Assembly (NCBI GenBank): GCA_016199675.1
Contig: JACQGE010000011.1
Location: forward strand, 1 to 45,326
Origin: Acidobacteriota bacterium
GTDB taxonomy: Bacteria > Acidobacteriota > Terriglobia > 2-12-FULL-54-10
DNA length: 45,326 bases
Direction: 5' to 3'
Shown one piece after another: positions 1,242 through 42,757 of the stretch. Below the pieces are notes generated by a model. The model saw nothing but the letters and a program-made list of their open reading frames with translations. It was not told the origin of the DNA and made no database searches. How positions within the stretch are numbered: position 1 is the first letter of the stretch; each line of letters starts with the position of its first letter. The translations under genes were made by a program, and so were the position numbers.

Positions 1242-2714
1242 TCAGCGACCTAAGTTTCCTGGCAACGTTATCACTTGTACCCCTGAAGCCTCCAGTGGCG
1301 TCGCGCCCAATTTGAGGAGCAGATTTGCCGTACTCTCGTTGAGCTTGCGAGGCTTCATGTCATAGTTAGCCCCCAAGGCGACCGTAACGGCGAACTGGGC
1401 GATACTCAACGGCGTTTGTCCGAACTTGTCCATCGCCTCAATGTTGGCGCCCTTCTCCACCAGGAACTCAATGATTTCGTCCATGGCAATGTATGCTGCG
1501 GAGTGCAGGGCGGTCTGGCCATAGTCGTTGGACGCATTGACGTCGCCGCCCAGTTCCAGAGCTAGTTTGACAGCTTCCAGAGCGTCCCTTTCCTCCTCCT
1601 CTGAGAAGTACTCATAGTTACCCTTATACCGCCCTCCTCCCGCGGCCGCCATCAGCGGCGTGGTGTTCTTCACCATTTGGAGTCTCAGCCCGTTCGCTCC
1701 ACTCAAAAACACCGTCTCCGTCGCCCCCAGCAGCGGATCAGCGCCGCTGGCCACAAGGGCACGCATGACGCTGACCTTGTGTGCTGTGGCTGCCATAAAG
1801 AACGGCGTCGTGCCAATCTGGCTGCCCTCGGCAGTACTCTTCACGACGCGAGAGTTCGGATTGGCTCCATGCGCCAGCAGCGCGTTTACCAAGTCGATCC
1901 GGCCTCGGCCTGCCGCGTAGTGCAGAGCAGTAAACCCTTCTTTGCCGTTCACCACATTCAGATCCGCGCCCTTCTCCAGCAGGAACATTGCAAGCTTCTC
2001 TTGGCCTCTGGAGCTCGCCACCGTCAAGGCGTTGCCGTCCTCCGGCGTGGCTTCGTTCACGTCCGCTCCCGCTGCCAGCAAGCTCTGAGCAGAGTCCAGA
2101 TCGCCCTCCCGTGCAGCAATCAGCAACGGCGTGAAACCACTCTTCGAACGGGCATGGACGTCGGCTCTGCCCTCGATCAGCATTCGCACGACCTCCGGGT
2201 GTTTTTCCTGCACCGCCCACATCAGGGCCGTTTGGCCCTCTCGGGGCTCCTTCGCATTTACGTCTACTCCGTGGGCCACAAGCAACTTCAACACGTCCAT
2301 GCTTCCAATACTCGCGGTCGTCATAAGCCCCGTCTCTCCTGACAGTAGGGCGGAGTTCGGATTCGCCCCGGCCTTCAACAGCTTCTCGACCATGGCAGCA
2401 CTCCCGTTGCTACAGGCCAGCCAAAGCGGTGTGGCACCATAGTTGTTCGCTGCATTCACATCGGCGCCGGCGCGAATCAGAAGGTCCGCCGTTTCCAGAT
2501 CATCCTGGTGGGCCGCCCAGGCTAATGCCGTCGCTCCATCGGCCTGGCGCGCATTCACATCGGCCTGTTGTTTTAGGAGGGAACGTACGGTTTCCTGATC
2601 TTTGTTCTTGACTGCATCAATTAGCGGAGGATTGCCAACGGGGGCCGCAAGACTGATGACGGACAGGATAGGTATCGTCCACAATCCACCTAAACGCTTA
2701 ACTTTGAACCCCAT
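1242..2714 (-). CDS. Secreted ankyrin-repeat protein (module 1)
   Basis: A protein of 490 residues. The ATG at 2714 is preferred over the one at 2735 because AAGGAG lies 5 nt before it. A cationic and hydrophobic N-terminus (MGFKVKRLGGLW, then IPILSVISLAAP) is a likely Sec signal peptide, so the ankyrin solenoid should act in the periplasm or outside. The rest is almost entirely ankyrin repeats of the form DGATALAWAAHQDDLETADL followed by LIRAGADVNA, about a dozen including divergent ones. A longer insertion lies between the central and C-terminal repeats. Ankyrin repeats bind proteins; no catalytic motif is visible. It is the last gene of the minus-strand group that starts with the cytochrome at 8683, and it has close paralogues at 23738 and 41201. 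The partner is unknown. Confidence 0.9.
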   Translation of the reverse strand: MGFKVKRLGGLWTIPILSVISLAAPVGNPPLIDAVKNKDQETVRSLLKQQADVNARQADGATALAWAAHQDDLETADLLIRAGADVNAANNYGATPLWLACSNGSAAMVEKLLKAGANPNSALLSGETGLMTTASIGSMDVLKLLVAHGVDVNAKEPREGQTALMWAVQEKHPEVVRMLIEGRADVHARSKSGFTPLLIAAREGDLDSAQSLLAAGADVNEATPEDGNALTVASSRGQEKLAMFLLEKGADLNVVNGKEGFTALHYAAGRGRIDLVNALLAHGANPNSRVVKSTAEGSQIGTTPFFMAATAHKVSVMRALVASGADPLLGATETVFLSGANGLRLQMVKNTTPLMAAAGGGRYKGNYEYFSEEEERDALEAVKLALELGGDVNASNDYGQTALHSAAYIAMDEIIEFLVEKGANIEAMDKFGQTPLSIAQFAVTVALGANYDMKPRKLNESTANLLLKLGATPLEASGVQVITLPGNLGR

Positions 2715-2801
2715 GGTCTCTCCTTCCCTCAGCACCCAATTTAGGAATCATATCACCGCCCCACGCGGTCAAAGCACGATCTAGATTAGGGCTATCTACG
2801 A

Positions 2802-2832
2802 ACCCTCGCGGGAGTTATCCCCCCGCGAGGGT
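2802..2832 (-). terminator. Strong hairpin after the receptor pseudogene
   Basis: Perfect 11-bp arms ACCCTCGCGGG / CCCGCGAGGGT enclose a 9-nt loop, 30 bases downstream of the receptor stop and before the ankyrin gene. Only a short T stretch follows on the minus strand, so termination may be partial. It may instead act as an mRNA-stabilising hairpin between the two genes. Confidence 0.5.
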
Positions 2833-2861
2833 CAATTGAGCCTCTCTTGCCTTCCTGCGGC

Positions 2862-4804
2862 TCAGAACTCGAACTTGAGTGCCAACTGGATCTGCCGCGA
2901 GGGACTAACTGTTCTCGTGATACGTCCTGGATTGGCGGTAAGCAGTCCGGTGGTGTCGAAAACGCTTGTGCCAGGCCCGCCGAAGATCGGGTGATTCGCC
3001 AAATTGAAAACCTCTGCCCGGAATTGCAGATTCTTCCCTTCGCCAACCGGAGCCGTCTTGAACACCGAAAAGTCGAACTTGGCGAGCCCCGGTCCACTCA
3101 AGGTGTTCTTCCCCACATTCCCGAAATAGCCTGCTGGCACCACCGTAAACTGGCTTTCATCAAACCAATGATCCAGCTCTCCGATCACTGGGTTGATATT
3201 TCCTCCTGGTTTCAGATTGGGCCGCAAAGCGCAACGGCAGTATTGGGTGGTCGAGTAACCGGGTCCACTGATATCTGACGGAAAGCCGGATCGCTTGGTG
3301 AACGATCCGTTGACTTGCCAACCACCCAAAAACGCATTCGGAACCCGGCCCATGTTCGTCCCGAACATATGGCCCTGTCCCACGGGGAGTTCGTAGGTGA
3401 AGTTCATATTGAAGTTTTGGGAGACGTCCTGGTCCGCCCGCCTCTATCGAAATGGTTGTCGTCCCAAAGGTTACTCACCTGAAAAGCATTGCCGCCCTCC
3501 CCGCCAGTGACGCCCAGTCCCGCTGCTTGGCTGATGTTTTTCGACCAGGTATGGGAAGCGCTAAACTCAAGCCCCTTAGAGAACCGCTTTTGAATCCGCA
3601 ATTGCAGAGCGTTATACCAACTATTCCCTATATTAGCGAAGGTTCGAGTATCATTCAAGGCTGGGTTGATGGAGGGCGCGCCTCTTTGCGTAAACGGTAC
3701 TCCGTTGGCATCGATGCTCAAGGCAGGTTGAACGTGATTGACTACTGAACCCAGATTAACGCCTCGGGTCCCGATATAGCTTGCCCTGGCAACCCAGTTT
3801 TCCCCAAACTGCCGCTCGATTCCAAAGTTCCACTGCATTGCATAGGGGTACTTGTAATCATAGTTGATGATTGTGGGTGAATAGATACCCTTGCTAGGAT
3901 CTGTCCCAGCTAAGGGGTTCGGCCAAGTCTTGAGGTCCCTGAGTTGCACCCGGTTCGCCCAAGGCGGATGGAAGACAGCCACCGAGAACTGGTAAAACAA
4001 GGGATCCTCTTTGAATAACCCAAAACCACCCCTGACGGAGGTCCTCGTGTCCGGGCTGTAAGCAAAGCCAAACCGTGGCATAAAGCCTCCTAAAATATCT
4101 CGGATCTGGAACAGCGGCTCCTTCCCCAGTTGCTCGTAGTTGCTGTCCCGCAGAATATCCATCAGGTTAGCCGTCTTCCCGTTGACCTCTACTGGAGGAG
4201 TGATTTTTCCCCAGCGCACGCCAAGGTTCAGGGTCAGATTCGGAAGCAACTCAATATTGTCCTGGACATACCAAGCTGTTAAAGTCTGCCGATATCCTCT
4301 GTAGGGATCCGCCAGCGCATATCCATTAGCAGCCGTAAGGGCGTGAGTAGCGATCAGGCTGCTGATCCCACGACAGTTAGCGGCCCCGGTGCAGTAACCC
4401 GGCTGGCCTGCCGTCAGAAAATTCTTTAAGGGGGAGAACCAGTCGGCCTGCCCGTGTGTCCAGGTCGTACGCAACATATTCTCCTGATATCGCCCGATGT
4501 CCACGCCCAAATCCAGGGAGTGGCGGCCTTTCGTAATGCTAACAGAATCGAGATAACTAAATGTGTTAGTAACGAATTTTAGGGGCTCGGGCCATCTCAG
4601 CCCCCACGCCACTAATTCCAGGAATTCCAAAACCGCCGCCCCAAGGCACTCCAGGAATGATTGTAAACTGCGGCGCCAGCCCCGGAAACTGATCTGCATT
4701 GGTGCGCTTGGTCGCTTCTCCGTCAATGCACTGACACTCATTGGAGTTGTTACGGGTAAAGGCCCTGTCAAGCTTTTTGGAAATGTGTAATAGCTTACTC
4801 ACAT
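2862..4804 (-). pseudogene. Decapitated, frameshifted Oar-like TonB-dependent receptor
   Basis: This is the C-terminal half of a receptor closely resembling receptor F at 42879. The minus strand shows NECQCIDGE, then a barrel segment (PLKFVTNTFSYLDSVSITKG), and it ends RQIQLALKFEF with the C-terminal Phe typical of outer-membrane barrels. Three lesions are visible. First, the regulatory domain, plug and early barrel are gone: sequence matching an internal barrel position (about 4755) is joined almost directly to a leader and ATG at 4804, which is followed at once by a stop. Second, there is a frameshift with a small deletion at about 4590-4620. Third, one base is lost at about 3436-3442, breaking FDRG-RADQDV. 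It occupies the receptor slot of module 1, between the DUF1552 gene and the ankyrin gene, so that module probably relies on another receptor. Confidence 0.85.
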
Positions 4805-4886: not shown

Positions 4887-4918
4887 CAAGAAGGTTTTGG
4901 CAACTCCACAGACAACAT

Positions 4919-6277
4919 CTACACGGACAGAAGGTTGATCTTTCCGGTGCTGTCGCCCAGCTTCTCCAACGGAATCCCTAACTTGTCTGCCAGGGTCAAG
5001 TAGAGATTCATCAGCGGCGTACCCTTTGGATACGTGAGGTGACGGCTCCCTTTGAGCTGACCCGACCCCCCACCCATCAACAGGATGGGCAGATCCGTGG
5101 GCAAATGCAGATTGCCATCGCTCAGACCGCCGCCGTAAACGATCATTGAATGGTCCAGCAGGGAGCCATCACCGTCAGAGGTAGATCGCAGCTTCTCCAG
5201 GAGATAAGCAAACATCCTGGAATGGAAGATATTGATCTTGAGCGCCTTTGCGATCGACTCGGGATTACCCTGGTGATGGGTTAATGGATGATGCGGATCT
5301 GCAATACCAAGCTCGAGGTAGGCTATAGTGCTGGATTCGTGGCCTACCATGAAGCTGATGACGCGGGTCAGGTCGCACTGGAAAGCCAGCACCTGCAAAT
5401 CAAACAACAGCTTGAGATGCTCTTCAATTGTGGCCGGGATACCAGCGGGCCGCTGCACAGTCGGGAGCTCCCGGGAGGATTGTTCCTCCGCCATCTGAAT
5501 GCGCCGTTCCACGTCTCGAACGGCTTCGAGATACTGGCTCACTTTGTCGCGGTCGCCCGGACCGATCCCCCTCAGGAGTCGAGCCACATCCTGGGTCATA
5601 ACGTCGAGGATGCTGCGCCTCATTTGGGTTTCGGCGAGCCGCTCTGCCCGATCCGTGGTATCACTGTCTCCAAATAGACGTTCGAATACCGCGCGCGGGT
5701 GGTTCTCCATCGGTAGCGGCGTCGTAGCATCGCGCCAGGAGATCGTGCTGCCGTACGAGCAGCCACCATCGCATGCTCCCAGAACCCCCGAGGATTCCAT
5801 GCCGAGCTCGAGCGAGGCCAGTTGAGTGTGCTTGCCGAACTCCCGCGCTACGATCTGGTCCGCCGACACTCCTGCACGTGTTTTTTCGCCGGCTATTCCC
5901 GACCTTATGTGAATACCCGTCAGGAACGCGGTGCTGGCGCGCGGATGTGGTGCCGAGGATTCGCCCTGCAGCGACCAAACTGCATTATTGTCGAGTCCGC
6001 TCAGCACAAGCATCTGATCCTTGAATGCAGCCAGCGGCTCCAGGATCGGTGGCAACTCGAAAGCGGCGCCTTCTGCCTTCGGCAACCAGTTTTCCATAAG
6101 CGCCACACCATTCGGGAAATAGACAAATGACAGGCGAGTCGCAGGTTTAGTCACCGTGTCCGGCGCGGATGCGAACGCCGGAATCATTCCTTCCAGCAAC
6201 GGCAATGCTAACGTCGCACCGGCGCCGCGCAAAAATGCCCGGCGAGGAATGGCTTTCTTGAAAATCATCATGCTCAT
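4919..6277 (-). CDS. Tat-exported DUF1552 (HXXSHH family) protein, module 1
   Basis: A protein of 452 residues. The ATG at 6277 (MSMMIFKK) is chosen because AGGAGG lies about 12 nt upstream and because the paralogues start at MMIFKK; an upstream TTG at 6331 is less likely. The N-terminus has a twin-arginine signal, PRRAFLRGAGATLALPLLEG, so the folded protein is probably exported by Tat. The family-naming motif reads HPLTHH here, with Thr in place of Ser, and is followed by QGNPESIAK. The C-terminal region has IVYGGGLSDGN and GDSTGKINLLSV. The gene lies 54 bp after the cytochrome at 6332 and is probably co-transcribed with it. DUF1552 is widespread in Planctomycetes and Acidobacteria beside such cytochromes; its reaction is not established. 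Confidence 0.9.
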   Translation of the reverse strand: MSMMIFKKAIPRRAFLRGAGATLALPLLEGMIPAFASAPDTVTKPATRLSFVYFPNGVALMENWLPKAEGAAFELPPILEPLAAFKDQMLVLSGLDNNAVWSLQGESSAPHPRASTAFLTGIHIRSGIAGEKTRAGVSADQIVAREFGKHTQLASLELGMESSGVLGACDGGCSYGSTISWRDATTPLPMENHPRAVFERLFGDSDTTDRAERLAETQMRRSILDVMTQDVARLLRGIGPGDRDKVSQYLEAVRDVERRIQMAEEQSSRELPTVQRPAGIPATIEEHLKLLFDLQVLAFQCDLTRVISFMVGHESSTIAYLELGIADPHHPLTHHQGNPESIAKALKINIFHSRMFAYLLEKLRSTSDGDGSLLDHSMIVYGGGLSDGNLHLPTDLPILLMGGGSGQLKGSRHLTYPKGTPLMNLYLTLADKLGIPLEKLGDSTGKINLLSV

Positions 6278-6331: not shown

Positions 6332-8683
6332 TTAGCGAAGACCAGCGGCACTCGCTGGTTCCTGTGCTTTTCTCATCTGAAACGGCGCACTTTTGACAAT
6401 CCCCATAATTAGTGCCGACCAGCGGTGGTCAGGAGCGGCCTCTAGTGTGATCTTGCGGATGGCCGGCATATCGTAATACTCGATTTCTCGGCCCACGGCA
6501 TACGTGAGGAGTTTTTCGATAACGGTAGCGACAAATTGCTCGCTTTTGCCGAGCAATACATTCCGAAGCCCAGCCGGCCCCGCGAACTTAGTTCCGTCGG
6601 GGAGTTCTCCTGATGCATCAATCAGGGTCTTGCCATCGGTGGTTCGGTACCTGCCGATGGCGTCAAAGTTTTCGAGCGCGAAACCCAGCGGGTCCATCAC
6701 CTTGTGACAACTCGCGCAGGCGGGGTTTGCACGGTGCTGTTCCATCCGCTGGCGCATGGTGAGAGCCTTGGCATCCTTGTCATCCTTCAGGGAAGGGACG
6801 TTCGGGGGAGGCGGAGGGGGTGGTGCGCCCAGGATGTTTTCCAGCAGCCACTTGCCTCGCAACGTCGGGGCCGTCCTGGTATTATACGACGTCACCGCTA
6901 GGATACTGCCCTGGCCCAGCAATCCCTTCCGGTTTTCATCGGTCAACGTCACGCGCCGAAACCGGCTACCGTAAATATTCGGAATCCCATAGTGTCGGGC
7001 CAGACGTTCGTTGAGGAATGTATAGTCCGCATTCAATAAGTCTAGAACGCTGCGATCCTCGCGCATATTGCTTTCAAAGAAAAGCTCCGTCTCCTGTTGG
7101 AGCGCCTGCCGCAGGTTCTCATCGAAATCGCGGAACACAGCCGCATCCGGCACCTTCATGCGCATGTTGCGCAGGTATAGCCACTGCCCCCCAAAATTGC
7201 TCACCAGCGCCTTCGAGCGCGAATCGCGGAGCATACGCCGTACTTGCTGTTCCAGTACCGCGGGATATTTGAGCTTGCCGCGTTCGGCCAACTCTAGCAG
7301 CTCGTCGTCGGGTATGCTGCTCCAGAGAAAAAACGACAAACGCGAGGCCAATTCAAGGTCGCTGATGCGATAAGCGGTATCTGGCGCCACGTTGGGTGGA
7401 TCGTGTTCAACGCGGAACAGAAACCCCGGGCTAACCAGCATTTCTCGAAGCGCCAGCATGATTCCTGCTTCAAAGCCTCCCTTGCTTCGACCAACTTTGT
7501 AGAGGCCGAGCAGAGGCTGCACGTCCGCATCAGTGACAGGCCGGCGATAAGCGCGACGCGCCAGCGTGGAGAGAATCTTCTTGGCGCAGGGATCCTCGTC
7601 CCAGCTGCCGGTTGGGAGACACACAAAAATCCTCGCGCGGCTGGGTAATTCCCCTGGCGCTGTCGCGCCGTACGGCCCACCGATGGTAACACTCGCCACG
7701 CCCTGACGGAAAAAACCGGCTCCATCAGGCTTCAAGGTATCTTTCAGAAAAGTGACCCCAACCACGTGCGCACCTGCCCTCGCTGGGATCCGGATCTCTA
7801 AGACCGCATCCGCCGTGCGCTCGTATTCCTCCGCCGACTTGCCATTACGCTCGCCGCCAACCGTGAACAACTCGATTCTCGCGCCATCCAGGAGGACATC
7901 CACTTGGTGCAGCTTGTCGACGCCGAGGATAGCCTCCTCGCTGTCTCTTTGCAGGAGGATTTTGAGAACGTAGTCGCCGTCGAGGGGGAAGTAATGGTGA
8001 ATCACGATTCCGCCACGCGACCCGAACGGGAGATCTTCGCTCACGCGGTCTTCTTGCACGAAGTCCTCGGGGACATAATATGTCTCGACGGCTGGAGGGA
8101 TAGCAATATCTCCAATAGCAAGGCGACTAATCTTTTTTGCCGCTGACATGTATCTTTCCAGCAGCACCGGCGATACAGCGAGGGCATCCGCATTGTTGTC
8201 GAAACCGTAGGCCGTCTCGTCGGCGGGAAGCAGCGATCCCGCATCGATATCAATCGCGAGCAAGTCGCGGATCGCATTGCCGTATTCGGTGCGGTTGAGG
8301 CGATGGATGACGGGCCTGCCGGGATTGGGCTTGGCCGTGGCAGCCCTGTCGAGCGCGGTCTCCATGTACGTAACGAAAGAATCGTAGGTGGCGTTATCGG
8401 GCCGCGGCATGCCGGCAGGGGGCATGGCACGCCCCTGGAGTTTACGCACCACCTTTTCCCACACCGCCGCGCCTTCACTGACATCCTCGACATCCATCTT
8501 GTCAAGCATCAGGTTTGCCGTTTTCAGTTTCTCGTTGTGGCAGGTGACGCAGTAGCGATTCAGAAGAACGCGTTGCGGTGAGGCGGGCTGCGTAGCGGGG
8601 CTCGATGCCTCCTGGCTACCTGCCTGAAGATAGCTGGCTCCGGCCAAGGCTATTCCCATGCAGCCCAGGATCGTTCTTAACAT
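6332..8683 (-). CDS. Secreted multi-domain cytochrome-like protein (PSCyt1/DUF1587/1595/1592/1588/1585), module 1
   Basis: A protein of 783 residues. The start ATG at 8683 has GGGAG 8 nt upstream. An N-terminal signal peptide (about residues 1-22) precedes a c-type heme motif, CVTCH at 45-49 (PSCyt1). DUF1587 follows (HRLNRTEYGNAIRDLL), then a beta-rich segment (LPFGSRGG, HYFPLDGDYVLKI), DUF1595 (ARRAYRRPVTDAD), DUF1592 (ELASRLSFFLWSSIPDDELL), a poly-Pro linker (GAPPPPPPPNVPSL), and DUF1588 with a second heme motif, CASCH at 656-660. DUF1585 ends the protein (APFQMRK). This is the canonical order for the family. It probably binds two hemes in the periplasm and may transfer electrons. The substrate is unknown. 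It is the first gene of the minus-strand group. Confidence 0.92.
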   Translation of the reverse strand: MLRTILGCMGIALAGASYLQAGSQEASSPATQPASPQRVLLNRYCVTCHNEKLKTANLMLDKMDVEDVSEGAAVWEKVVRKLQGRAMPPAGMPRPDNATYDSFVTYMETALDRAATAKPNPGRPVIHRLNRTEYGNAIRDLLAIDIDAGSLLPADETAYGFDNNADALAVSPVLLERYMSAAKKISRLAIGDIAIPPAVETYYVPEDFVQEDRVSEDLPFGSRGGIVIHHYFPLDGDYVLKILLQRDSEEAILGVDKLHQVDVLLDGARIELFTVGGERNGKSAEEYERTADAVLEIRIPARAGAHVVGVTFLKDTLKPDGAGFFRQGVASVTIGGPYGATAPGELPSRARIFVCLPTGSWDEDPCAKKILSTLARRAYRRPVTDADVQPLLGLYKVGRSKGGFEAGIMLALREMLVSPGFLFRVEHDPPNVAPDTAYRISDLELASRLSFFLWSSIPDDELLELAERGKLKYPAVLEQQVRRMLRDSRSKALVSNFGGQWLYLRNMRMKVPDAAVFRDFDENLRQALQQETELFFESNMREDRSVLDLLNADYTFLNERLARHYGIPNIYGSRFRRVTLTDENRKGLLGQGSILAVTSYNTRTAPTLRGKWLLENILGAPPPPPPPNVPSLKDDKDAKALTMRQRMEQHRANPACASCHKVMDPLGFALENFDAIGRYRTTDGKTLIDASGELPDGTKFAGPAGLRNVLLGKSEQFVATVIEKLLTYAVGREIEYYDMPAIRKITLEAAPDHRWSALIMGIVKSAPFQMRKAQEPASAAGLR

Positions 8684-12900: not shown

Positions 12901-13283
12901 TTTGCAGAACTTGCGCAATCCGTCCCAACCTGAAGCCGGGAGCGAGCAACAGCCCTGTTCTGGGTGATCCAAGCCTGTATTTTGACCCCAGCGGGTTTGA
13001 GGTTGTGCCGGCAGGCTACTTTGGAAACCTTGGGCGCAATACGTTAGAGGGTCCTAAACAGGTGAACATGGATTTCTCGTTCTTTAAAAGCTTTTCGTTT
13101 GGCGAGAGCAAACGTTTGCAATTTCGTTCCGAGATTTTCAACGTTCTAAATCATCCGAATTTTACTGCTCCAGCCTCTACAGTTTTCAACACGGACGGTA
13201 CCCAGAGTCCCACAGTAGGTCGGATAACTTCAACAACCAACAAGTCTCGACAGATTCAGTTTGGGTTGAAGTTCGAGTTTTAG
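9914..13283 (+). pseudogene. Receptor A: Oar-like TonB-dependent receptor with a frameshift
   Basis: The gene has a good ribosome site (AAGAAGGGAG before the ATG). It encodes a signal peptide, a carboxypeptidase-regulatory-like domain (GTISGTVRDSTGAVIPGATV), a plug with IPLNGRNF and YLLDGIEV, and a barrel ending RQIQFGLKFEF. The first frame ends at 11149 and the second begins before 11060. They join smoothly (QAGDYRAQG / VQEFIGTRTRVAG) if one base is removed at about 11061-11070. Without the indel the product would be about 1,120 residues, the usual size. It carries the paired cysteines CPPGMRTC, QCACLPG and CRTC shared with receptors E and F. The single defect could be a real recent mutation, a programmed shift or an assembly error. 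An outer-membrane role is inferred from the family. Confidence 0.85.
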
Positions 13284-13341
13284 TTTTCGCGTTATCGCAA
13301 TCGTGCCCGATGTGAGTGCGGCTAATGGAGGGCTCCGCTTT

Positions 13342-30154: not shown

Positions 30155-30208
30155 TGAAACCCCCGAAGTGGGAAAAATGCTCGCCACCCCAGAGGAGCAG
30201 CGCTTCCG

Positions 30209-32122: not shown

Positions 32123-32225
32123 TTTGAGTGACCCCTCCCTTCTCCTCAATTACAATGCAGGATTCAGGCTTCCACCATGCGCGGAAGCATACGTAAACTG
32201 CCCCATGCTGTCAAGCCGCTACCGT

Positions 32226-33753: not shown

Positions 33754-36700
33754 TTAGAACTCGAACTTCAGCGCCAACTGAACCAACCGTGGAGATCCCA
33801 AAGTCTGGTCAATAATCCCCACAGTTGGACTCACGGTACCGGCGTTCGTGAATACGGTGGAGCCGGGTCCAGCGAAGTTCGGGTGATTTGGCAGATTGAA
33901 GAACTCCGCCCGGAACTGCAGGTTCTTGCCCTCTCTCACTGGAAATACCTTGAATATCGAGAAGTCCACTTTTGTTTGGCCGGGCCCGGACATTGTATTT
34001 CTGCCCAGGTTGCCAAAATACCCCTGCGGGACTTGCTCGAACTGCGTCTCATCAAACCAATGATTAATATCGCCCGTCACCGGGTTGTTGTTGCCTCCGG
34101 GTTTCAGGTTGGGCCTTAAGGAGCAAGAGCGGCAGAAATTGTTAATGTTGTAGCCCGCCCCGCCAATTGTAACTGGCAATCCTGAGCGAGCGGAGACGAT
34201 CCCGTTAATTTGCCAGCCACCGAAAATCAGATTCGCAGTGTTTCCCATATTGCCCCCGAAAAACCGGCCTTGGCCTATAGGGAGTTCATAACTATAGTTA
34301 AAAACAAAGTTGTTCCGGACATCCTGATCCAGCAGGCTTCTATCATATTCCTTGTAGTTCCATAGATTGCCCGAGGTGAATCCGCTTCCAAAAGTGGAGG
34401 AGGAACCAGCCCCGTTCAGTCCAAGCACTCCGGTGCCGACGTTTTTTGACCAGGTGTGGGACACACTAAACTCTAACCCATGACTGAACCGCTTCTGCAA
34501 CCGCAACTGGAGCGCGTTGTAAAGACTGTCTCCCAGATTCGCATAGGTGCGCGTGGAATCCAGGGCCGGATTGATGGATGGCTGGAGGCGAGGGGTGAAC
34601 ATCCTTCCCTGCGCATCGAGTTGGACCGCAGGCTGGATCTGGTCAATAACGCCTACCAAGCTTACACCGCGGGTTCCGATATAGGTTGAGCTTACCACCC
34701 AGCTTGCTCCCAATTGTCTCTGGATTCCGAAGTTCCACTGCATACCGTACGGGTACTTGAGATCCGTATTGATATTCTGAGGCTGCGGAGTGCCGGTGGA
34801 AGTGTTTACTTTGGGTATTGGGTCGGGCCAAATCTTGAGGTTGCGCAGTAAGATCCGGTCCGCCCAGGGTGGATAATAAATCGCCCCTTGATACAGGTAT
34901 TCCAGCGGAATTTCTTTGAAGAGTCCGTACCCGCCTCGGACCGTAGTTGCTGCATCCGGACTATAGGCTAAGCCGAAGCGAGGTCCCAAACCTCCCAAAA
35001 TATCCCGGCTTGAGAACAATGGATCCTTCCCCACCAGCGTCCATCCGGTATCCCGCAGTGTGTCTTTCACCACAGCCGCTTTCCCATTGACTTCTACTGG
35101 CCCTGTAACTCTCTCCCAGCGAACGCCAAGGTTAAGGCTTAGGTTCGGCAGCAACTGGAAGTCGTCCTGAATGTACCAAGCGCCGTAGGTCTGCCGCCAT
35201 CCCCGGTAAACATCTGCTGGGCCTGTTACCGCGACCGTCGTGAGGGTATAGCCATTGCATCCGGTGCAGGCGCCAACGGTTAAAAAGTTCGCCATTGGAG
35301 CAGCAAAAGAAGTCTGCCCGTGAGACCGGACCGAGCGGATTGTGTTTTGTTGATAGCGGCGGACATCCACGCCAATATCAAACGAATGCAACCCTTTCGT
35401 GAGGCGCACGGAATCAGCATAACTGAACGTATTGTCCACCCACATCAGCGGGTCGTCCAGGTCGGCGCCCAAGACCGTGCCGCCGGGACGGCCGTTGTGG
35501 CCGCCGGGAACGCTGACTCCAGGAACTCCCCAAGGCCCGCCCCAGTACACCCGGGGTATGACCGCCAACTGTGGCGGAAGTCCCGGATAGTCATCGGCAT
35601 TGACGCGGCTGTTTTCCTCCCCATCAATACACATGCACTGGTTGTTGTTGTTGCGGGTAAATCCAGCCCGCGCTATATTGAGGACGCTCGGAGAGATTAT
35701 TCTCGTCCACTCCAGCGCCAGGTAGCTATAAGAGCCCCAGTCGTTCGTCCAGGTGTGAAGATTCTTGGATACATCCAAAAACTGGGCGTCGGGAACCTCC
35801 TTGCTGCTGCGGTCCATCACGAACCGCCCGAAAATGTTGTCATTGTCGCTGAGCCGTTGGTCAACCCGGAACATGTAATAGTTCTCCCGCCCGCGCTCCC
35901 TCACGCTTTCCTTGAATTCCTGAAGACCATCGTTCAAATACAGCCCATTTCCCCTCGGAATGAGGTCGATGATCGGACGAATGTCTGGTCTTACGTCCAC
36001 CGTTCGTGTAATAACACTTTGCTCCTTGGTGCAGGTTTGCATTCCAGTCGGGCACCCCGTGATCTGCCCATTCCGCGCCTCGTCGCTCATGACGCGGCCG
36101 TTATCGGTAGTTCCTCGAATCTGCCGCAAGCCTTCATAGGAGGCAAAGAAGAAGGTGTTGTCTTTCTTAATCGGCCCGCCTAGCGTGCCGCCGAACTGGT
36201 TCCGCTTATATGGCGGTATTGGTTCATCCGGTATGTCGAAGAAGTTCTTCGCGTCCAGATTCTCGTTTCTCAAAAACTCAAACGCGCTCCCGTGAAGTTC
36301 ATTGGTTCCAGAACGGGTTACGGCATTCATGATGCCGCCAATGGCGCGGCCATACTGGGAGCCATAGTTATTCGAAAGGACCGTGAATTCCCGGATGGTA
36401 TCCACGCCCAGGGTTTGGTTCATCACGCTTACTGGGGCCACGTTATTGGACGGGCTGACCATCTCTACCCCGTCCAGCAGGTAAAGGCTTTGCGTCGCGC
36501 GTGCTCCGTTCAACACGACTCTGCCGCCGCCCTGAAAGACTCCCGACGGAATCCCCAGGTCTGTAACGGCTCCAGGCTGAATCGCCGTTAAATCCGTAAA
36601 ACTACGCCCGTTCAGCGGCAGTTCTCTCATTTCCCTTTCACTGACTAGATTAGACACGGTAGCATTCGTCGTCTCCAATAACGGTGCTTCCCCCATCACC

Positions 36701-37056
36701 GTAATCCTTTCCGCTACCGCTCCCACTTGCAGCGCGAAATCCACCACGGCTTGTCGTCCCACCGTCAACTCAATTCCGCTGCGCACCACGCTTTGGAACC
36801 CAGCCGCTTCTACCATAACTTCATGCATGCCTAAACCCAATTGCTGCGCTGTGTAGCGCCCCTGAGCATTCGTATTCACGGTGCGGGTGATCCCTGTCTC
36901 TACGTTCCGCACGGTAATGGTTGCCCCCGGGATTACTGCCCCGGAACTGTCAGACACAGCGCCAGAGATTTGCCCGCCTGTGACCTGGGCCAGGGCAATT
37001 GTGCTCACAAACATCGCACACACTGCTGCTTGCATCAAAATCCACTTTCCTCTCAT
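33754..37056 (-). CDS. Receptor E: Oar-like TonB-dependent receptor
   Basis: A protein of 1,100 residues. The ATG at 37056 is preceded by AAGGAGGG and six bases; the open frame extends to 37284, but that part is leader. Signal peptide MRGKWILMQAAVCAMFVSTI, regulatory-like domain (GQISGAVSDSSGAVIPGATI), plug (LPLNGRSFTDLTAIQPGAV, YLLDGVEM), and barrel ending RLVQLALKFEF. It shares the paired-cysteine signature of receptors A and F: CPTGMQTC, NQCMCIDGE, GACTGC and CRSC. It is divergent from the module 3 cytochrome gene across a 301-bp region with a palindrome. It should sit in the outer membrane; the ligand is unknown. Confidence 0.92.
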   Translation of the reverse strand: MRGKWILMQAAVCAMFVSTIALAQVTGGQISGAVSDSSGAVIPGATITVRNVETGITRTVNTNAQGRYTAQQLGLGMHEVMVEAAGFQSVVRSGIELTVGRQAVVDFALQVGAVAERITVMGEAPLLETTNATVSNLVSEREMRELPLNGRSFTDLTAIQPGAVTDLGIPSGVFQGGGRVVLNGARATQSLYLLDGVEMVSPSNNVAPVSVMNQTLGVDTIREFTVLSNNYGSQYGRAIGGIMNAVTRSGTNELHGSAFEFLRNENLDAKNFFDIPDEPIPPYKRNQFGGTLGGPIKKDNTFFFASYEGLRQIRGTTDNGRVMSDEARNGQITGCPTGMQTCTKEQSVITRTVDVRPDIRPIIDLIPRGNGLYLNDGLQEFKESVRERGRENYYMFRVDQRLSDNDNIFGRFVMDRSSKEVPDAQFLDVSKNLHTWTNDWGSYSYLALEWTRIISPSVLNIARAGFTRNNNNQCMCIDGEENSRVNADDYPGLPPQLAVIPRVYWGGPWGVPGVSVPGGHNGRPGGTVLGADLDDPLMWVDNTFSYADSVRLTKGLHSFDIGVDVRRYQQNTIRSVRSHGQTSFAAPMANFLTVGACTGCNGYTLTTVAVTGPADVYRGWRQTYGAWYIQDDFQLLPNLSLNLGVRWERVTGPVEVNGKAAVVKDTLRDTGWTLVGKDPLFSSRDILGGLGPRFGLAYSPDAATTVRGGYGLFKEIPLEYLYQGAIYYPPWADRILLRNLKIWPDPIPKVNTSTGTPQPQNINTDLKYPYGMQWNFGIQRQLGASWVVSSTYIGTRGVSLVGVIDQIQPAVQLDAQGRMFTPRLQPSINPALDSTRTYANLGDSLYNALQLRLQKRFSHGLEFSVSHTWSKNVGTGVLGLNGAGSSSTFGSGFTSGNLWNYKEYDRSLLDQDVRNNFVFNYSYELPIGQGRFFGGNMGNTANLIFGGWQINGIVSARSGLPVTIGGAGYNINNFCRSCSLRPNLKPGGNNNPVTGDINHWFDETQFEQVPQGYFGNLGRNTMSGPGQTKVDFSIFKVFPVREGKNLQFRAEFFNLPNHPNFAGPGSTVFTNAGTVSPTVGIIDQTLGSPRLVQLALKFEF

Positions 37057-37101
37057 GGGAAACCCTCCTTTACAGGTTGCAATACCGCTGACCAATGGCA
37101 A

Positions 37102-37125
37102 GTCTTTAGCGAGATAGCTAAAGAC
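37102..37125 (-). promoter_or_regulatory. Leader hairpin upstream of receptor E
   Basis: GTCTTTAGC and GCTAAAGAC form a perfect 9-bp stem with a 6-nt loop, about 45 bases before the receptor start. Its distance from the ribosome site resembles that of the leader RNAs at 4802 and 8787, but the loop lacks the C-run. The leader has no other clear feature apart from the ribosome site. Confidence 0.4.
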
Positions 37126-37275
37126 CTCCCCGTCCGGCAACAAACCCTCGATCCATCCGTGAGACAATCGTGATCTGCGGACGCAGACGCGAAACGGCTG
37201 AAGTTCGACTTCGCAATGTTTACCCAGCGTCCGTCTCCACACCCCGTTGGAAGGGAGCCTACGCTCGCCAGTACT

Positions 37276-37305
37276 GGATGTCAAGGAAAAATTTCCTTGA
37301 CATCC
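37276..37305. promoter_or_regulatory. Perfect 30-bp palindrome overlapping the module 3 promoter
   Basis: GGATGTCAAGGAAA, two central bases AA, then TTTCCTTGACATCC form an exact palindrome. Its right arm contains the -35 box TTGACA of the cytochrome promoter, and by symmetry its left arm presents a TTGACA toward receptor E. This fits a dimeric regulator site controlling both divergent transcripts. Confidence 0.6.
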
Positions 37306-37357: not shown

Positions 37358-39721
37358 ATGTCAAAACTAATAATGGCGTGGATTGGAATCGGGTTGGCCA
37401 GCACAGCACATCTTCTTCAGGCAGCTAGCCAGGAAGTCCCTAACCCTGCACCCGGCCCTGCCGCGCAATATAGTACGGTTCTCAGCCGCTACTGCTTTAC
37501 CTGCCATAACGAAAGACTCAAAACAGCCGGCTTGATGCTGGACAAGATGGATATCGAGAATATTCCTGCAAGCGCGGAGGTATGGGAAAAGGTCATCCGC
37601 AAACTTCGCGTCCGGGGAATGCCTCCCGCCGGTATGCCGCGGCCGGACCTAGCCACCTATGATTCCTTTGCCACGTATTTGGAGACAGAACTTGACAACG
37701 CGGCCGCAGCAAAACCCAATCCCGGAAGAACGGCTGCCATACATCGGCTCAATCGCGCCGAATACACCAACGCGATCCGCGATTTGCTGGCATTGGAAAT
37801 ATACAACGAATCGCTTCTGCCTCCCGATGATTCGAACTATGGTTTTGACAACATCGGAGAGATTCTAACCGTATCCTCCGCGCTGCTGGAAAGGTTTATG
37901 TCAGCGGCAGAGATAATCGGTCGTCTGGCGATTGGGGATCCTACAATCCGTCCAGCACTCGCGACATACGAGATTCCCAGCAATTTCCAGCAACAGGACC
38001 GTGCCAGCGAAGATCTACCTTTCGGGTCGCGTGGCGGGCTTGCCGTTCGCCATTATTTTCCATTGGATGGCTCTTATCTCATTAAAATTGGTCTCAAGAA
38101 AGTCGATGATGGGTTATATGCGGGGCAAGTTGTCGGTTTCGAAGATCCCAAACAACTCGATCTACGTTTGGATGGCGAAAGAGTGCAAGTGTTCACTGTT
38201 GGTGGCAAGTCCGAAACAACCGATGCGGATTTGCAAATCCGCATTCCGTTAAAAGCGGGTTCCCATTTGGTTGGAGTCACTTTCCTGAAAGATTCCAAGA
38301 GGCTGGAAGGCCCAGCTCGTGAGGCAAGAGACCAGTCTGGTGTAAGTGAACTCACAATCGGCGGTCCCTATGACGGGAGGAGACCAATAAATACACCGAG
38401 CCGCAGCAAGATTTTTTTATGCAATCCAAAGAACAGCCAGGAGGAAGAACCCTGCGCCAAAAAGATACTTTCGACGTTGGCACGTCGCGCGTACCGCCGT
38501 CCGGTCAGCGATGCGGACATCCAACCTCTGCTCGATCTTTATAGGACTGGCTTGGCCAAGGGCGGTTTTGAATCGGGAATCAAATTGGCTTTGGAAGGAA
38601 TACTGGACAGTCCCTCCTTCCTCTTCCGAGTAGAACGCGATCCACAGAACGTGGCGCCTGATACCCCCTATCCCATCAGTGATCTCGAACTGGCTTCCCG
38701 ACTATCGTTTTTCCTTTGGAGCAGCATACCTGACGATGAACTGTTGACCCTAGCCGAACGCGGCGAACTCAAAAATCCTGCGGTGCTGGAGCAACAAGTG
38801 AAGCGCATGCTTGCCGACTCACGTTCGAAGGCTCTTGTTGACAATTTTGCGGGGCAGTGGCTAACCCTTCGCAGCCTGAGCTCGAAGTCTCCAGATCGGT
38901 CAGTGTTTCCCAATTTCGACGATAACCTTCGTGAAGCGCTCCTACAGGAGACAAAACTATTCTTCGATAGCATCGTGCGCGAGAATCGCAGCGTGGTGGA
39001 TTTGCTGAATGCAGATTATACGTTCCTCAACGAACGTCTGGCCCGCCATTATGGCATTCCGAATGTTTATGGCAGCCAGTTTCGGCGGGTAAAGGTGATC
39101 GATGAGAATCGGAGGGGGCTGCTCGGCAATGCCAGTGTTCTAATGGCGACCTCCTATAATACCAGGACCTCACCTGTTCTTCGCGGCAAATGGGTGTTGG
39201 AAAATATCCTGGGTACCCCGCCCCCGCCACCACCACCAGACGTTCCATCTCTAAAAGACGACAAGGACGCCAAGGCACTGACAATGCGTCAGCGGATGGA
39301 GCAGCATCGCGCAAATCCAGCGTGTGCAGCTTGCCACAAATTAATGGATCCCCTGGGCTTTGCGTTAGAAAACTTCGATGCCGTCGGCCAGTTCCGAACC
39401 ACAACCGGTGCGGATAGAACGCCGATAGATGTCTCAGGCGCGCTTCCCGATGGCACTCCTTTGCAGGGTGCGGCCGGGCTTCGGGAGAATCTGCTGAAAA
39501 ATCCTGAACAATTTGTGGATACCTTTGCAAAGAAACTACTGACTTATGCCCTAGGCCGAGGAGCCGCCTATTACGACGGTCCGGCTATCCGCAGAATTCT
39601 GCAGGAGTCTGCGCCTGACTACCGTTTTTCTTCCATAGTTTTGGGCATTATCAAGAGCGTGCCATTTCAGATGAGGGAATCACAATCACAAGTGCCAGCA
39701 GCCGTTGCGGGCGTTCGCTAA
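37358..39721 (+). CDS. Secreted multi-domain cytochrome-like protein, module 3
   Basis: A protein of 787 residues, with GGAGGCGG about ten bases before the ATG. Signal peptide, then heme motif CFTCH (46-50). The family domains follow in the usual order: DUF1587 (HRLNRAEYTNAIRDLL), a beta-rich segment (LPFGSRGGLAVRHYFPLDGS), DUF1595 (ARRAYRRPVSDAD) and DUF1592 (ELASRLSFFLWSSIPDDELL). A poly-Pro linker (GTPPPPPPPDVPSL) precedes DUF1588 with heme motif CAACH (656-660), and DUF1585 ends the protein. Only this copy is on the plus strand. It is followed by its DUF1552 partner after 51 bp. The runs of Pro probably need EF-P for translation. The electron-transfer role is inferred from the heme motifs. 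Confidence 0.92.
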   Translation: MSKLIMAWIGIGLASTAHLLQAASQEVPNPAPGPAAQYSTVLSRYCFTCHNERLKTAGLMLDKMDIENIPASAEVWEKVIRKLRVRGMPPAGMPRPDLATYDSFATYLETELDNAAAAKPNPGRTAAIHRLNRAEYTNAIRDLLALEIYNESLLPPDDSNYGFDNIGEILTVSSALLERFMSAAEIIGRLAIGDPTIRPALATYEIPSNFQQQDRASEDLPFGSRGGLAVRHYFPLDGSYLIKIGLKKVDDGLYAGQVVGFEDPKQLDLRLDGERVQVFTVGGKSETTDADLQIRIPLKAGSHLVGVTFLKDSKRLEGPAREARDQSGVSELTIGGPYDGRRPINTPSRSKIFLCNPKNSQEEEPCAKKILSTLARRAYRRPVSDADIQPLLDLYRTGLAKGGFESGIKLALEGILDSPSFLFRVERDPQNVAPDTPYPISDLELASRLSFFLWSSIPDDELLTLAERGELKNPAVLEQQVKRMLADSRSKALVDNFAGQWLTLRSLSSKSPDRSVFPNFDDNLREALLQETKLFFDSIVRENRSVVDLLNADYTFLNERLARHYGIPNVYGSQFRRVKVIDENRRGLLGNASVLMATSYNTRTSPVLRGKWVLENILGTPPPPPPPDVPSLKDDKDAKALTMRQRMEQHRANPACAACHKLMDPLGFALENFDAVGQFRTTTGADRTPIDVSGALPDGTPLQGAAGLRENLLKNPEQFVDTFAKKLLTYALGRGAAYYDGPAIRRILQESAPDYRFSSIVLGIIKSVPFQMRESQSQVPAAVAGVR

Positions 39722-39772: not shown

Positions 39773-41116
39773 ATGATGATCTTCAAGAAGACTCTTCCCC
39801 GGCGCACGTTCTTGAAAGGCGTTGGCGCAACGCTGGCTTTGCCGCTGCTGGACGGAATGATCCCGGCATTCGCAAGTACGCCCACCGGCTCGAAAGCCGC
39901 AACGCGGCTAGCGTTTGTTTATATTCCGAATGGGGCCATCCAAGATAAATGGACGCCGGCGACCGTGGGAGCCGGCTTCAAGATGACTCCAATTTTAGAA
40001 CCGCTGGCTGCATTCCAGGATCAGCTCCTTGTACTGAGCGGACTCTCGTCGGTTCAGGCCATCGGCTTGGCGGGTGAGAGCGAGGGGCCGCATCCGCGTG
40101 CCTGCGTCACATACATGACGGGTGTTCATGCGGGGACAAGGAATATAAGAACTGGAGAGGCTCAGGTTAGCGCAGGAATTTCTGTGGACCAGGTAGCGGC
40201 CAAAGAACTTGGGAAGTACACTGAACTTGGATCACTCGAGATTGGAATAGAGTCCATTGGGATTGGCGCATGCGATGGAAGTTGTGCCTATACGGACACT
40301 ATTTGCTGGCGCGATGCAACCACACCTCTCCCGATGCAGAACCAGCCGCGCGCAATATTCGAGCGCCTGTTCGGCCCTAGCGACAGCACGGATCCGGTAG
40401 AGCGGCTTGCTCGAGTCCGGAAAAACCGCAGCATTTTGGACTTTGTGTCTGAGGAAGCCCGCCGGCTCATGATGGGCCTAGGTTCGGGCGACCGCCTCAA
40501 GGTGAACCAGTATCTCGAATCCGTTCGAGACGCTGAGCGACGTATTCAGAAGGCTGAGGAGCAGTCCTCTCGAGAATTGCCGACTGTGCAGCGGCCCGCC
40601 GGTATCCCGGATAAATTTACCGAACATATCAAACTGATGTTTGACCTGATGACCCTTGCCTTTCAAACAGACTTGACCCGCATCTCCAGCCTTCAGATCG
40701 GCCATGAAATGAGCAATGCGACCTATCCCGAGATTGGAATTACCGATCCACATCACCCGTTCACGCATCACCAGGGCGACCCCTACAAGATTGACAAAGC
40801 CATCCAGGTTAACATTCTACATACTACGATGTTTGCTTATTTCCTCGAGAAGATGCGATCGACACAGGATGGCGATGGAACCCTTTTAGACCATTCGTTG
40901 ATAGTTTACGGCGGCGGTCTCGGAGATGGCAATCTGCATATTCCCAAAAACCTGCCGATTTTGCTCGTAGGTGGAGGATCCGGTCAGGTTAAGGGGGGAC
41001 GCCACATCCAATATTCAAAAGACACGCCATTGGCCAATCTTCAGTTAGCCCTGCTGCATAAGGTAGGAGTCCAGGCTGATAGGTTCGGCGATAGCACTGG
41101 CGATCTGGAGCTGTAG
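39773..41116 (+). CDS. Tat-exported DUF1552 (HXXSHH family) protein, module 3
   Basis: A protein of 447 residues; GGAGG lies nine bases before the ATG. The twin-arginine signal is LPRRTFLKGVGATLALPLLD. The family motif reads HPFTHH, with Thr for Ser as in module 1, followed by QGDPYKIDK. CDGSC (near 163) is shared with the module 1 copy (CDGGC) and differs from the CERNWNC of module 2. The C-terminus has VYGGGLGDGNLHIPKNLPIL and FGDSTGDLEL. It is the last gene of the plus-strand operon and is followed by a strong bidirectional terminator. Function unknown. Confidence 0.92.
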   Translation: MMIFKKTLPRRTFLKGVGATLALPLLDGMIPAFASTPTGSKAATRLAFVYIPNGAIQDKWTPATVGAGFKMTPILEPLAAFQDQLLVLSGLSSVQAIGLAGESEGPHPRACVTYMTGVHAGTRNIRTGEAQVSAGISVDQVAAKELGKYTELGSLEIGIESIGIGACDGSCAYTDTICWRDATTPLPMQNQPRAIFERLFGPSDSTDPVERLARVRKNRSILDFVSEEARRLMMGLGSGDRLKVNQYLESVRDAERRIQKAEEQSSRELPTVQRPAGIPDKFTEHIKLMFDLMTLAFQTDLTRISSLQIGHEMSNATYPEIGITDPHHPFTHHQGDPYKIDKAIQVNILHTTMFAYFLEKMRSTQDGDGTLLDHSLIVYGGGLGDGNLHIPKNLPILLVGGGSGQVKGGRHIQYSKDTPLANLQLALLHKVGVQADRFGDSTGDLEL

Positions 41117-41144
41117 CCGGGTTTTCTGTTGCGCGAAGGATCAT

Positions 41145-41177
41145 AAAAAACCCTCCCCGGATAAGGGAGGGTTTTTT
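41145..41177. terminator. Bidirectional intrinsic terminator
   Basis: AAAAAACCCTCCC and GGGAGGGTTTTTT form a perfect 13-bp stem with a 7-nt loop, giving a GC stem and a T-run in both directions. It serves the convergent DUF1552 (plus) and ankyrin (minus) genes. Confidence 0.92.
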
Positions 41178-41200
41178 ATTTGAACGTGAAATCAGTTCTT

Positions 41201-42757
41201 TTATTTACCCGCTACTTGGTCATGGAGCTCTAAAACATCGAGCACCTTCACACCCGATTTCTCCAATGGAGTGGCGCCTAATTTGAGAAGCAACTCCGCT
41301 GTGTCATCACGATATTTACGGGGTCTCGCGTCGAGACTATCACCCAAGCCGGTCGTAATAACGTGGAAGGCGATACTCAAAGGCGTCTGCCCGAAATTGT
41401 CAAAGACCTCTGTTTTAGCGCCTTTGGATATCAAATACTCTACCATCTTGTTTCCGCCCACGTATGCTGCGCCGTGCAGGGGTGTAAAGCCATACTCGTT
41501 TGCCTCATTGACATCGCCGCCTAATTCTTCCACTGCCACCTTTAGTGCTTCGAGATGTCTGCTTTCCTCTTCCGGCGGGTACTCTGCCCAGTTACCCTGA
41601 ACCTTGCCCACACCCGCTGCTTCCATCAGAGGGGTGGTACCCCCCATATAATCGAGTCGGCGGCCGCTTCCCCCTTCCAGAAATACGTTCTCAGTGGTCG
41701 TGAGCTTTGGATCAGCTCCGCCAGCGGCCAGCAAGCGCATTGCGGGGGCATTACCCTGCTCCGCTGCCAGCCAAAGCGGCGTGGCGCCAATCGCTACTGT
41801 GCCACCCTTGGTGCCATCCCTTATAACTCGTGAAGGTGATTTCAAAAACGAGACTCCGATAATCGGGATTCTTTGATCCTTAGCAGCAGCTTTCTCAATC
41901 CGTGCGTTAGGATTCGCTCCGTGCGCTAAGAGCGCTTTCACGGATTCAGTCATGTTCCGGCGCTCCGCCGCATAGTGCAGAGCAGTATAGCCGTTAAAGT
42001 CTACGGCGTTCGGGTCCGCGCCATTTTCTAGGAAAAGAATAACGAGTTGCTGGTAACCGCTAGAAGCCGCCAGCAGTAAGGGACTGGCGTCCGGCGAGCC
42101 CTCGTTGATTTTCGCTCCCGCTGCCAGCAGGATCTTGGCAGAATCTGGATCGTTCTGCTGGACAGAAAACATTAACGGCGTGAAACCACCATTGGAACGA
42201 CCGTTGACTTCCGCTCCATGCTCGATCAGAACCTGAACTACATCAGGACGTTTTTCCGCCGCCGCACGCATTAGAGCTGTCTGCCCTGCTGGTTCTTTCG
42301 CATTTATGTCCGCTCCGTGGGCTAGCAAGGACTTGACCGCTTCCGCGCTTTTTCCAGCAGCAGCCATGAGCGCCGTTTCTCCGGAAAGCAGGGCTGTATT
42401 AGGATTCGCCCCTGCCTGCAATAACTTCTCAACCATAGCATCGTTGCCGTTAGAACTGGCCAGCCATAAAGCGGTAGCGCCATACTCGTTGGCCGCGTTC
42501 ACATTTGCGCCGGCATGAATCAAAAGTTCCGCCGTGTCCAGATCATTCCAATGAGCCGCCCAGTGCAGCGCTGTCGCACCATCCGTTTGGCGAGCATTCA
42601 CATCAGTCCCCTGGCGCTCCAACAAAGAACGCACCTGCGCCGTATCTCCTCGCCGTGCAGCATCCACCAGCGAAGCATCGTCGCTAGAGGCGGCAAGCCC
42701 CGCCACTGGCAATAGAAGTAACATGCACGTATTCAAGAGCTTTCGCTTCCTAGCCAT
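41201..42757 (-). CDS. Secreted ankyrin-repeat protein (module 3)
   Basis: A protein of 518 residues, with GAAGGAGGGATAGAA before the ATG at 42757. The signal peptide is MARKRKLLNTCMLLLLPVAG. About a dozen ankyrin repeats follow (DGATALHWAAHWNDLDTAEL, LIHAGANVNA). An insertion after the seventh or eighth repeat (KAAAKDQRIPIIGVSFLKSP) lies where the other copies also vary. The C-terminal repeat pattern DNFGQTPLSIAFHVITTGLG and the tail LLLKLGATPLEKSGVKVLD match the module 1 copy closely. It follows receptor F across a terminator, and is convergent with the cytochrome-DUF1552 operon. The partner is unknown. Confidence 0.9.
   Translation of the reverse strand: MARKRKLLNTCMLLLLPVAGLAASSDDASLVDAARRGDTAQVRSLLERQGTDVNARQTDGATALHWAAHWNDLDTAELLIHAGANVNAANEYGATALWLASSNGNDAMVEKLLQAGANPNTALLSGETALMAAAGKSAEAVKSLLAHGADINAKEPAGQTALMRAAAEKRPDVVQVLIEHGAEVNGRSNGGFTPLMFSVQQNDPDSAKILLAAGAKINEGSPDASPLLLAASSGYQQLVILFLENGADPNAVDFNGYTALHYAAERRNMTESVKALLAHGANPNARIEKAAAKDQRIPIIGVSFLKSPSRVIRDGTKGGTVAIGATPLWLAAEQGNAPAMRLLAAGGADPKLTTTENVFLEGGSGRRLDYMGGTTPLMEAAGVGKVQGNWAEYPPEEESRHLEALKVAVEELGGDVNEANEYGFTPLHGAAYVGGNKMVEYLISKGAKTEVFDNFGQTPLSIAFHVITTGLGDSLDARPRKYRDDTAELLLKLGATPLEKSGVKVLDVLELHDQVAGK

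Follow-up and report, generated by a model that had tools for sequence, protein, structure and literature searches.

A co-diverging exported cassette of a di-heme-motif cytochrome, a DUF1552 protein and a secreted ankyrin-repeat protein in Acidobacteriota and marine Gammaproteobacteria

In a stretch of 45,326 nucleotides from an Acidobacteriota bacterium (contig JACQGE010000011.1 of assembly GCA_016199675.1; here referred to as the window), genes for a di-heme-motif cytochrome of the DUF1592/PSCyt3 type, a DUF1552 protein and a secreted ankyrin-repeat protein occur together three times. The data reported here support that the three proteins make up a recurrent, co-evolving and expanded envelope cassette. 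While the pair of PSCyt3 and DUF1552 genes is already known, the ankyrin-partnered, expanded form is new: the pair as described has no further constant partner, whereas here, in one clade, an ankyrin protein joins it almost constantly as a third member. Full-text literature searches, the coverage of which leaves out most subscription journals, turned up no account of the trio. In metagenome-assembled genomes (MAGs) of Verrucomicrobia, PSCyt genes lie beside genes of unknown families, in some cases with carbohydrate-binding modules (CBMs), and He et al. 2017 state that nothing is known of the functions of these genes (PMC5615132). These PSCyt3/DUF1592 loci resemble the ones described here in that PSD2-5 and PSCyt3 domains are encoded beside a conserved unknown gene and are multiplied in the genome; no ankyrin protein is mentioned for them, whereas the clade with its near-constant third member spans Acidobacteriota and Gammaproteobacteria. 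Uncultivated bacteria of soil and sea abound in DUF1592/PSCyt3 and DUF1552 proteins, and the only paper found to address their role calls it unknown. A constant third partner whose task can be read, namely protein binding, offers a first handle on these systems.

The source genome is a MAG of 2.5 Mb in 198 contigs with 87% completeness, and the genes of the window were identified by listing open reading frames (ORFs), the starts of which are approximate, and by Pfam scans (Table 1). A first-pass annotation of the window had described three paralogous sets, and every gene that it named was found and in the order that it had given for each of the three modules. The whole genome has exactly six DUF1552 (PF07586) genes, exactly six PSD4/DUF1592 cytochrome genes and six full-length ankyrin proteins together with one fragment at a contig edge. 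All of these DUF1552, cytochrome and full-length ankyrin genes fall in six sets, of which three are in the window and one each on contigs C41, C78 and C121; in the C78 set, the receptor, cytochrome, DUF1552 and ankyrin genes all run in one direction. Because the genome has exactly six of each gene, all together in six sets, the sets are not a product of chance.

When species genomes were scanned with the six DUF1552 proteins, 70 loci were obtained from Acidobacteriota and marine Gammaproteobacteria. According to profiles that were each built from the six own-genome members of a family, the ankyrin gene lies, nearly everywhere that the contig is long enough, either directly behind the DUF1552 gene on the same strand or divergently before the cytochrome gene. 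Because a similarity search is biased, DUF1552, PSCyt3 and the ankyrin subfamily were searched separately in 119 Acidobacteriota genomes drawn evenly across the phylum, with the six own-genome sets counted in. DUF1552 is present in 18 of the 119 genomes, and a PSCyt3 gene is found within 6 kb of 68 of the 69 DUF1552 loci. Among the 40 ankyrin matches of at least 200 bits, 35 have a DUF1552 or PSCyt3 match no more than 4 kb away, three more proved to adjoin one on inspection of the DNA (L100, L119, L122) and the other two start at the end of a contig (L120, L121); matches of 150-200 bits are mostly in genomes without DUF1552. Similarly, in nine further genomes reached via these loci, 122 of 137 ankyrin matches are within 6 kb of DUF1552. 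For instance, the complete 6.1-Mb Vicinamibacterales chromosome OY282382.1 has 39 DUF1552, 39 PSCyt3 and 37 ankyrin matches, and 31 of the 37 ankyrin matches have a DUF1552 gene within 6 kb, whereas 2000 random trials gave 3.3 on average and never more than 10. The cassette thus reaches about 40 copies per genome. Most of the genomes are MAGs, and Planctomycetota and Verrucomicrobiota were left out of the sampling.

A maximum-likelihood tree of 104 cytochromes has one supported clade of 91 members, of which 83 have an ankyrin neighbor, eight are cut by contig ends and none is classed as lacking an ankyrin gene. By contrast, the cytochrome-DUF1552 pairs outside this clade (in the sister clades sampled) are without ankyrin; three outer rows of the tree that are marked ankyrin-positive by rule share that ankyrin with a neighboring inner cassette. 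Among cytochromes with 2.5-kb flanks, an ankyrin neighbor is found by rule in 52 of the 54 scoring at least 760, in addition to one that the rule missed, and in 0 of the 9 scoring below 760. Moreover, pairwise distances in 68 complete triples correlate closely (cytochrome-DUF1552, r 0.89; cytochrome-ankyrin, r 0.90; DUF1552-ankyrin, r 0.88). When labels were shuffled only among paralogues of the same genome, the observed r was never reached in 2000 shuffles (p 0.0005), and an exact test on the six own-genome sets gave r 0.94 for cytochrome versus ankyrin (p 0.0014). Because the distances agree across the trio, the cassettes have for the most part been multiplied and moved as whole units. Thus, co-location in other genomes and parallel gene trees, i.e. 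two checks that the first-pass annotation had proposed, both speak for the cytochrome, DUF1552 and ankyrin genes belonging together.

The cytochromes of the window have the domain order PSD3-PSD5-PSD4-PSCyt3-PSD2 with two CxxCH motifs each, and exactly two such motifs are present in 99 of 100 homologues. Typically, the cytochrome and DUF1552 genes overlap (median 4 bp), as in module 2, in which the cytochrome stop codon and the DUF1552 start codon share bases, and an ankyrin gene on the same strand follows DUF1552 after a median of 28 bases. The DUF1552 proteins of the window have the Tat motif RRxFL[KR]G, and DUF1552 N-termini generally have twin arginines, for example as RRxFL or RR[AT]VLRG. 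The strict Tat pattern matches 62 of 82 DUF1552 proteins; of the 20 misses, 19 have twin arginines and one is an over-extended ORF. The ankyrin N-termini are Sec-like in both phyla, as judged by a regular expression and by reading, and the regular expression, which under-counts, detects the Sec pattern in 70 of 85.

A structural model of the module 3 DUF1552 protein (predicted local distance difference test, pLDDT, 86.6) matches sulfatases and other proteins of the alkaline phosphatase superfamily in Foldseek (E 6e-6, probability 1.0, TM about 0.4), and the 14 PDB matches at E<=0.001 are all from the alkaline phosphatase/sulfatase superfamily. DUF1552 is therefore predicted to have this fold. 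It differs from the superfamily in having no sequence match to any solved chain and in its His-rich HXXSHH segment. Several His residues, among them those in this segment, are invariant or nearly invariant in an alignment of 71 DUF1552 sequences, and Asp and Ser residues are conserved as well; the sequences were selected for their Tat pattern, and most belong to the ankyrin clade. The model of the module 3 cytochrome (pLDDT 90.4) contains a beta-sandwich at approximately residues 200-341, and the best small-domain matches to this in a fold search are CBM35/CBM6 modules; for the rest of the model, the search gave no confident match among solved structures. Neither NCBIfam, in which we looked for named families, nor PADLOC, in which we looked for anti-phage defence systems, has a match of this kind for the cytochrome or DUF1552, and both gave only generic matches for the ankyrin repeats.

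Which of the two other proteins the ankyrin protein would work with is suggested by two gammaproteobacterial genomes (L141, L142), in which one or three ankyrin copies adjoin a cytochrome gene without DUF1552. Because ankyrin and cytochrome are kept together without DUF1552, this gene content suggests the cytochrome as the partner of the scaffold. The three tandem ankyrin genes beside one cytochrome gene are at L141 6112-13939.

Clues to the substrate come from distant gammaproteobacterial homologues, in which the cytochrome is joined to modules that bind cellulose (CBM2) or starch (CBM26). At L136 (7241-13595) and L137 (6962-13617), a cytochrome is fused to three CBM2 modules and followed by DUF1552 and a gene for an FCSD-like flavoprotein, while at L140 (9462-16157) a protein of 2232 amino acids combines four CBM26 modules, a glucose/sorbosone dehydrogenase and a DUF1592 cytochrome and is likewise followed by DUF1552. 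These loci resemble the cassette in their homologous cytochrome core and in the DUF1552 gene behind it; unlike the cassette, they have no ankyrin gene, and the CBM2 proteins have four CxxCH motifs. A DUF1592 protein with CBM2 from Cellvibrio has been tabulated for a lignocellulose-degrading community (PMC6004670). Because of the CBM35-like domain, the fusions to CBM2, CBM26 and the dehydrogenase, and the Cellvibrio protein, our best reading is that carbohydrate-like substrates may be oxidised in the periplasm. The CBM35-like domain and the fusions likewise make the oxidation of extracellular substrates, as put forward in the first-pass annotation, or of periplasmic ones plausible. Cbp2D-type electron donors of lytic polysaccharide monooxygenases are not claimed as relatives, as their domain descriptions do not mention DUF1592.

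Taken together, we suggest a model in which the cytochrome, DUF1552 and a dedicated ankyrin partner constitute a three-gene exported redox cassette, a reading for and against which we see the scales as evenly balanced. In this model, the di-heme-motif cytochrome with its CBM35-like domain and helical PSD/PSCyt3 core would capture and oxidise a substrate, either carbohydrate-like or a related organic compound, at the cell surface or in the periplasm; alternatively, it would pass on the electrons from such an oxidation. The Tat-exported, His-rich DUF1552 protein, which is probably translationally coupled to the cytochrome, may provide the metal-site half of the chemistry or condition the substrate. 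The Sec-exported ankyrin solenoid would be the dedicated partner of its own cytochrome and keep it assembled, active or placed, a role that we model on that of AnkB for the periplasmic catalase KatB. Finally, duplication of the whole cassette would have given rise to up to about 40 copies, with each scaffold diverging together with its own cytochrome. AnkB is required for full KatB activity in Pseudomonas aeruginosa, and an ank-katE arrangement is present in Leptospira (both as cited in PMC7567364). Going by these citations, an exported ankyrin is encoded beside a periplasmic heme protein in these systems, as it is in the cassette with its Sec-like signals and its c-heme cytochrome neighbor; however, the heme protein is a catalase rather than a DUF1592 c-type cytochrome, and there is neither a cassette in multiple copies nor a DUF1552 gene.

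Several observations weigh against this model. The match of DUF1552 to its predicted fold, although consistent, is of moderate strength, and a search by sequence gave no useful solved homologue for the families of the trio. The ankyrins conserve only residues of the ankyrin scaffold in the alignment, with no shared metal or heme site among them. Inside the clade, the ankyrin gene was lost or relocated in a small lineage (L148, L151, with L103), one further pair is without it (L147), and there are orphan ankyrins on the same chromosome (L144-L146). We found no biochemical data in the literature for the cytochrome, DUF1552 or ankyrin family. Lastly, 17 genes from one cluster of pyrroloquinoline quinone (PQQ) dehydrogenases in 14 loci looked suggestive, but on OY282382.1, 8 of the 39 DUF1552 genes are within 8 kb of a PQQ dehydrogenase versus 6.3 expected (p 0.29). 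PQQ dehydrogenases are thus ruled out as functional partners, being no commoner than chance on a complete chromosome, and the neighborhood therefore names no substrate. This chromosome (genome G125), which carries 39 cassettes, has at least 71 PQQ-dehydrogenase matches.

A bolder version of the model, which we entertain as a tentative possibility, is that the cassettes are unrecognised, massively paralogous envelope oxidases, in which an obligate ankyrin subunit would set the specificity or assembly of its own cytochrome, giving about 40 orthogonal pairs per genome for different substrates. If so, many ankyrin-containing "eukaryotic-like proteins" of marine and soil bacteria would be subunits of redox systems and not host effectors.

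Because the nearest functional precedents for periplasmic ankyrins are partners of catalases, the cassette could instead be a di-heme system similar to cytochrome c peroxidase that handles peroxide or radicals, with the ankyrin as an AnkB-like activator. The two heme motifs of the cytochrome fit such a peroxidase-like protein. However, the cytochrome matches no peroxidase or catalase family in Pfam, carbohydrates are what both the CBM35-like domain and the fusions to CBMs suggest, and tens of paralogues per genome are hard to square with a general defence enzyme. Accordingly, we consider this explanation unlikely.

A different precedent is Bd3460 of Bdellovibrio, a periplasmic ankyrin protein of six repeats that blocks the endopeptidase encoded beside it (PMC4686830). 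If the ankyrin of the cassette were a self-protection inhibitor of this kind, it would hold the exported enzyme pair inactive until the target is reached, and the one-to-one co-divergence would also fit enzyme-inhibitor pairs. The Bd3459-Bd3460 pair resembles the cassette in that a periplasmic ankyrin is paired with an enzyme encoded next door; it differs in that the enzyme inhibited is a peptidoglycan endopeptidase and in having no cytochrome or Tat protein (PMC4686830). The cassette contains no toxin or cell-wall-hydrolase domain, and its anatomy gives no hint of harm to the producer. Gene order does not inform on this point, as the ankyrin gene is commonly behind the enzyme genes here, as it is in Bdellovibrio. 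Overall, inhibition strikes us as an improbable role.

The first-pass annotation had also proposed that an Oar-like receptor is the fourth constant member, i.e. that the cassette is a four-component system for uptake and oxidation with an obligate receptor. In the source genome, a PF25183 receptor is indeed within 4 kb of six of six sets, although there are only about 35 such genes in that genome, and a classical TonB receptor adjoins the cassette in some Gammaproteobacteria. However, among cassettes with full flanks, a receptor within 4 kb was found for 1 of 21 in other Acidobacteriota and for 4 of 15 in Gammaproteobacteria, in the latter of the classical TonB type unlike the PF25183 receptors here; these counts rest on two profiles, which remote receptor types could escape. 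The receptors of the window also do not track the cassettes closely. The module 2 pair, at 32-40% identity to the other receptors, is from another receptor subfamily, and the module 3 receptor that adjoins the ankyrin gene (42879-45326), as opposed to the one divergent from the cytochrome gene (33754-37284), is 88% identical to the C121 receptor, while the C121 cassette is not the closest relative of that in module 3. Receptor distances follow the cassettes loosely, with r 0.44-0.59 and p 0.007-0.14 depending on the receptor assigned. Thus, constant membership holds for the cytochrome, DUF1552 and ankyrin and fails for the receptor, which is usually absent in other genomes. The neighborhood counts rule out the receptor as a core member, and it is an optional, lineage-specific addition; we give an obligate four-component system very little weight.

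Sponge-associated bacteria have ankyrin proteins that are commonly classed as eukaryotic-like, and the ankyrins described here could be host-interaction effectors that merely sit near cytochromes; because of the near-universal adjacency to, and co-divergence with, the cytochrome in soil and seawater lineages, this reading is effectively refuted for this ankyrin subfamily, and we assign it next to no probability. With up to 39 DUF1552, 39 PSCyt3 and 37 ankyrin matches per genome, caution is called for in taking secreted ankyrins as markers of symbiosis, because the ankyrins in these genomes belong to what is probably a periplasmic redox cassette.

Table 1. Cassette genes and neighboring receptor genes in the window
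Feature	Position	Strand	Evidence
Module 1 secreted ankyrin-repeat protein	1242..2714	-	PF00023 243 bits, PF12796 226 bits; Sec-like signal-like N-terminus in alignment
Module 1 Oar-like receptor pseudogene, split, N-terminal plug part missing	2862..4771	-	Two out-of-frame PF25183 pieces, profile 277-660 and 659-838
Module 1 DUF1552 (HXXSHH) protein, Tat motif RRAFLRG	4919..6277	-	PF07586 301 bits
Module 1 di-heme-motif DUF1592/PSCyt3 cytochrome	6332..8683	-	PSD4, PSCyt3, PSD3, PSD2, PSD5; two CxxCH
Frameshifted Oar-like receptor, optional neighbor	9914..13283	+	PF13620 and Plug in ORF 9914-11149; barrel in ORF 10989-13283
Oar-like receptor without carboxypeptidase-regulatory domain, optional neighbor	13303..16353	+	PF25183 544 bits
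Oar-like receptor, tandem partner of 20400-23573 (78% identical), optional neighbor	16959..20141	-	PF25183 600 bits
Oar-like receptor beside module 2, optional neighbor	20400..23573	-	PF25183 596 bits at 20424-22838
Module 2 secreted ankyrin-repeat protein, Sec-like N-terminus	23738..25285	-	PF12796 217 bits
Module 2 DUF1552 protein, Tat motif RRTFLRG	25577..26923	-	PF07586 326 bits at 25868-26788
Module 2 di-heme-motif DUF1592/PSCyt3 cytochrome	26920..29367	-	PSD4 160 bits, PSCyt3 133 bits; start placed at signal peptide
Oar-like receptor divergent from module 3 cytochrome, optional neighbor	33754..37284	-	PF25183 599 bits
Module 3 di-heme-motif DUF1592/PSCyt3 cytochrome	37358..39721	+	Pfam scan; structure modelled
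Module 3 DUF1552 protein	39773..41116	+	PF07586 304 bits; structure modelled
Module 3 secreted ankyrin-repeat protein, Sec-like N-terminus, convergent with DUF1552	41201..42757	-	PF12796 221 bits
Oar-like receptor beside module 3 ankyrin gene, cut by window end	42879..45326	-	PF25183 498 bits

The window contains several other genes. Two secreted DinB-fold proteins (PF05163/PF12867) are encoded at 9197-9745 and 16381-16926, each beside an Oar-like receptor gene, and a gene for an MglA/Arf-like small GTPase (29576-30187) is just upstream of the module 2 cytochrome gene. At 31034-33542, an exported cupin protein adjoins a lipoprotein-like protein with an internally duplicated domain similar to carboxymuconolactone decarboxylase, and broken pieces of a serine recombinase (Zn_ribbon_recom) are present at the window edge (1-941). 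In the wider sample, the records of L031, L055, L058, L081 and L086, which are titled Klebsiella pneumoniae, and of L040, which is titled Acidimicrobiia, look wrongly named, and their cassettes group with those of marine Gammaproteobacteria or Acidobacteriota. Finally, a secreted protein that has a DGQPDISGIW motif and belongs to no Pfam family recurs near cassettes, at L052 (18382-19419) and 14 other loci.

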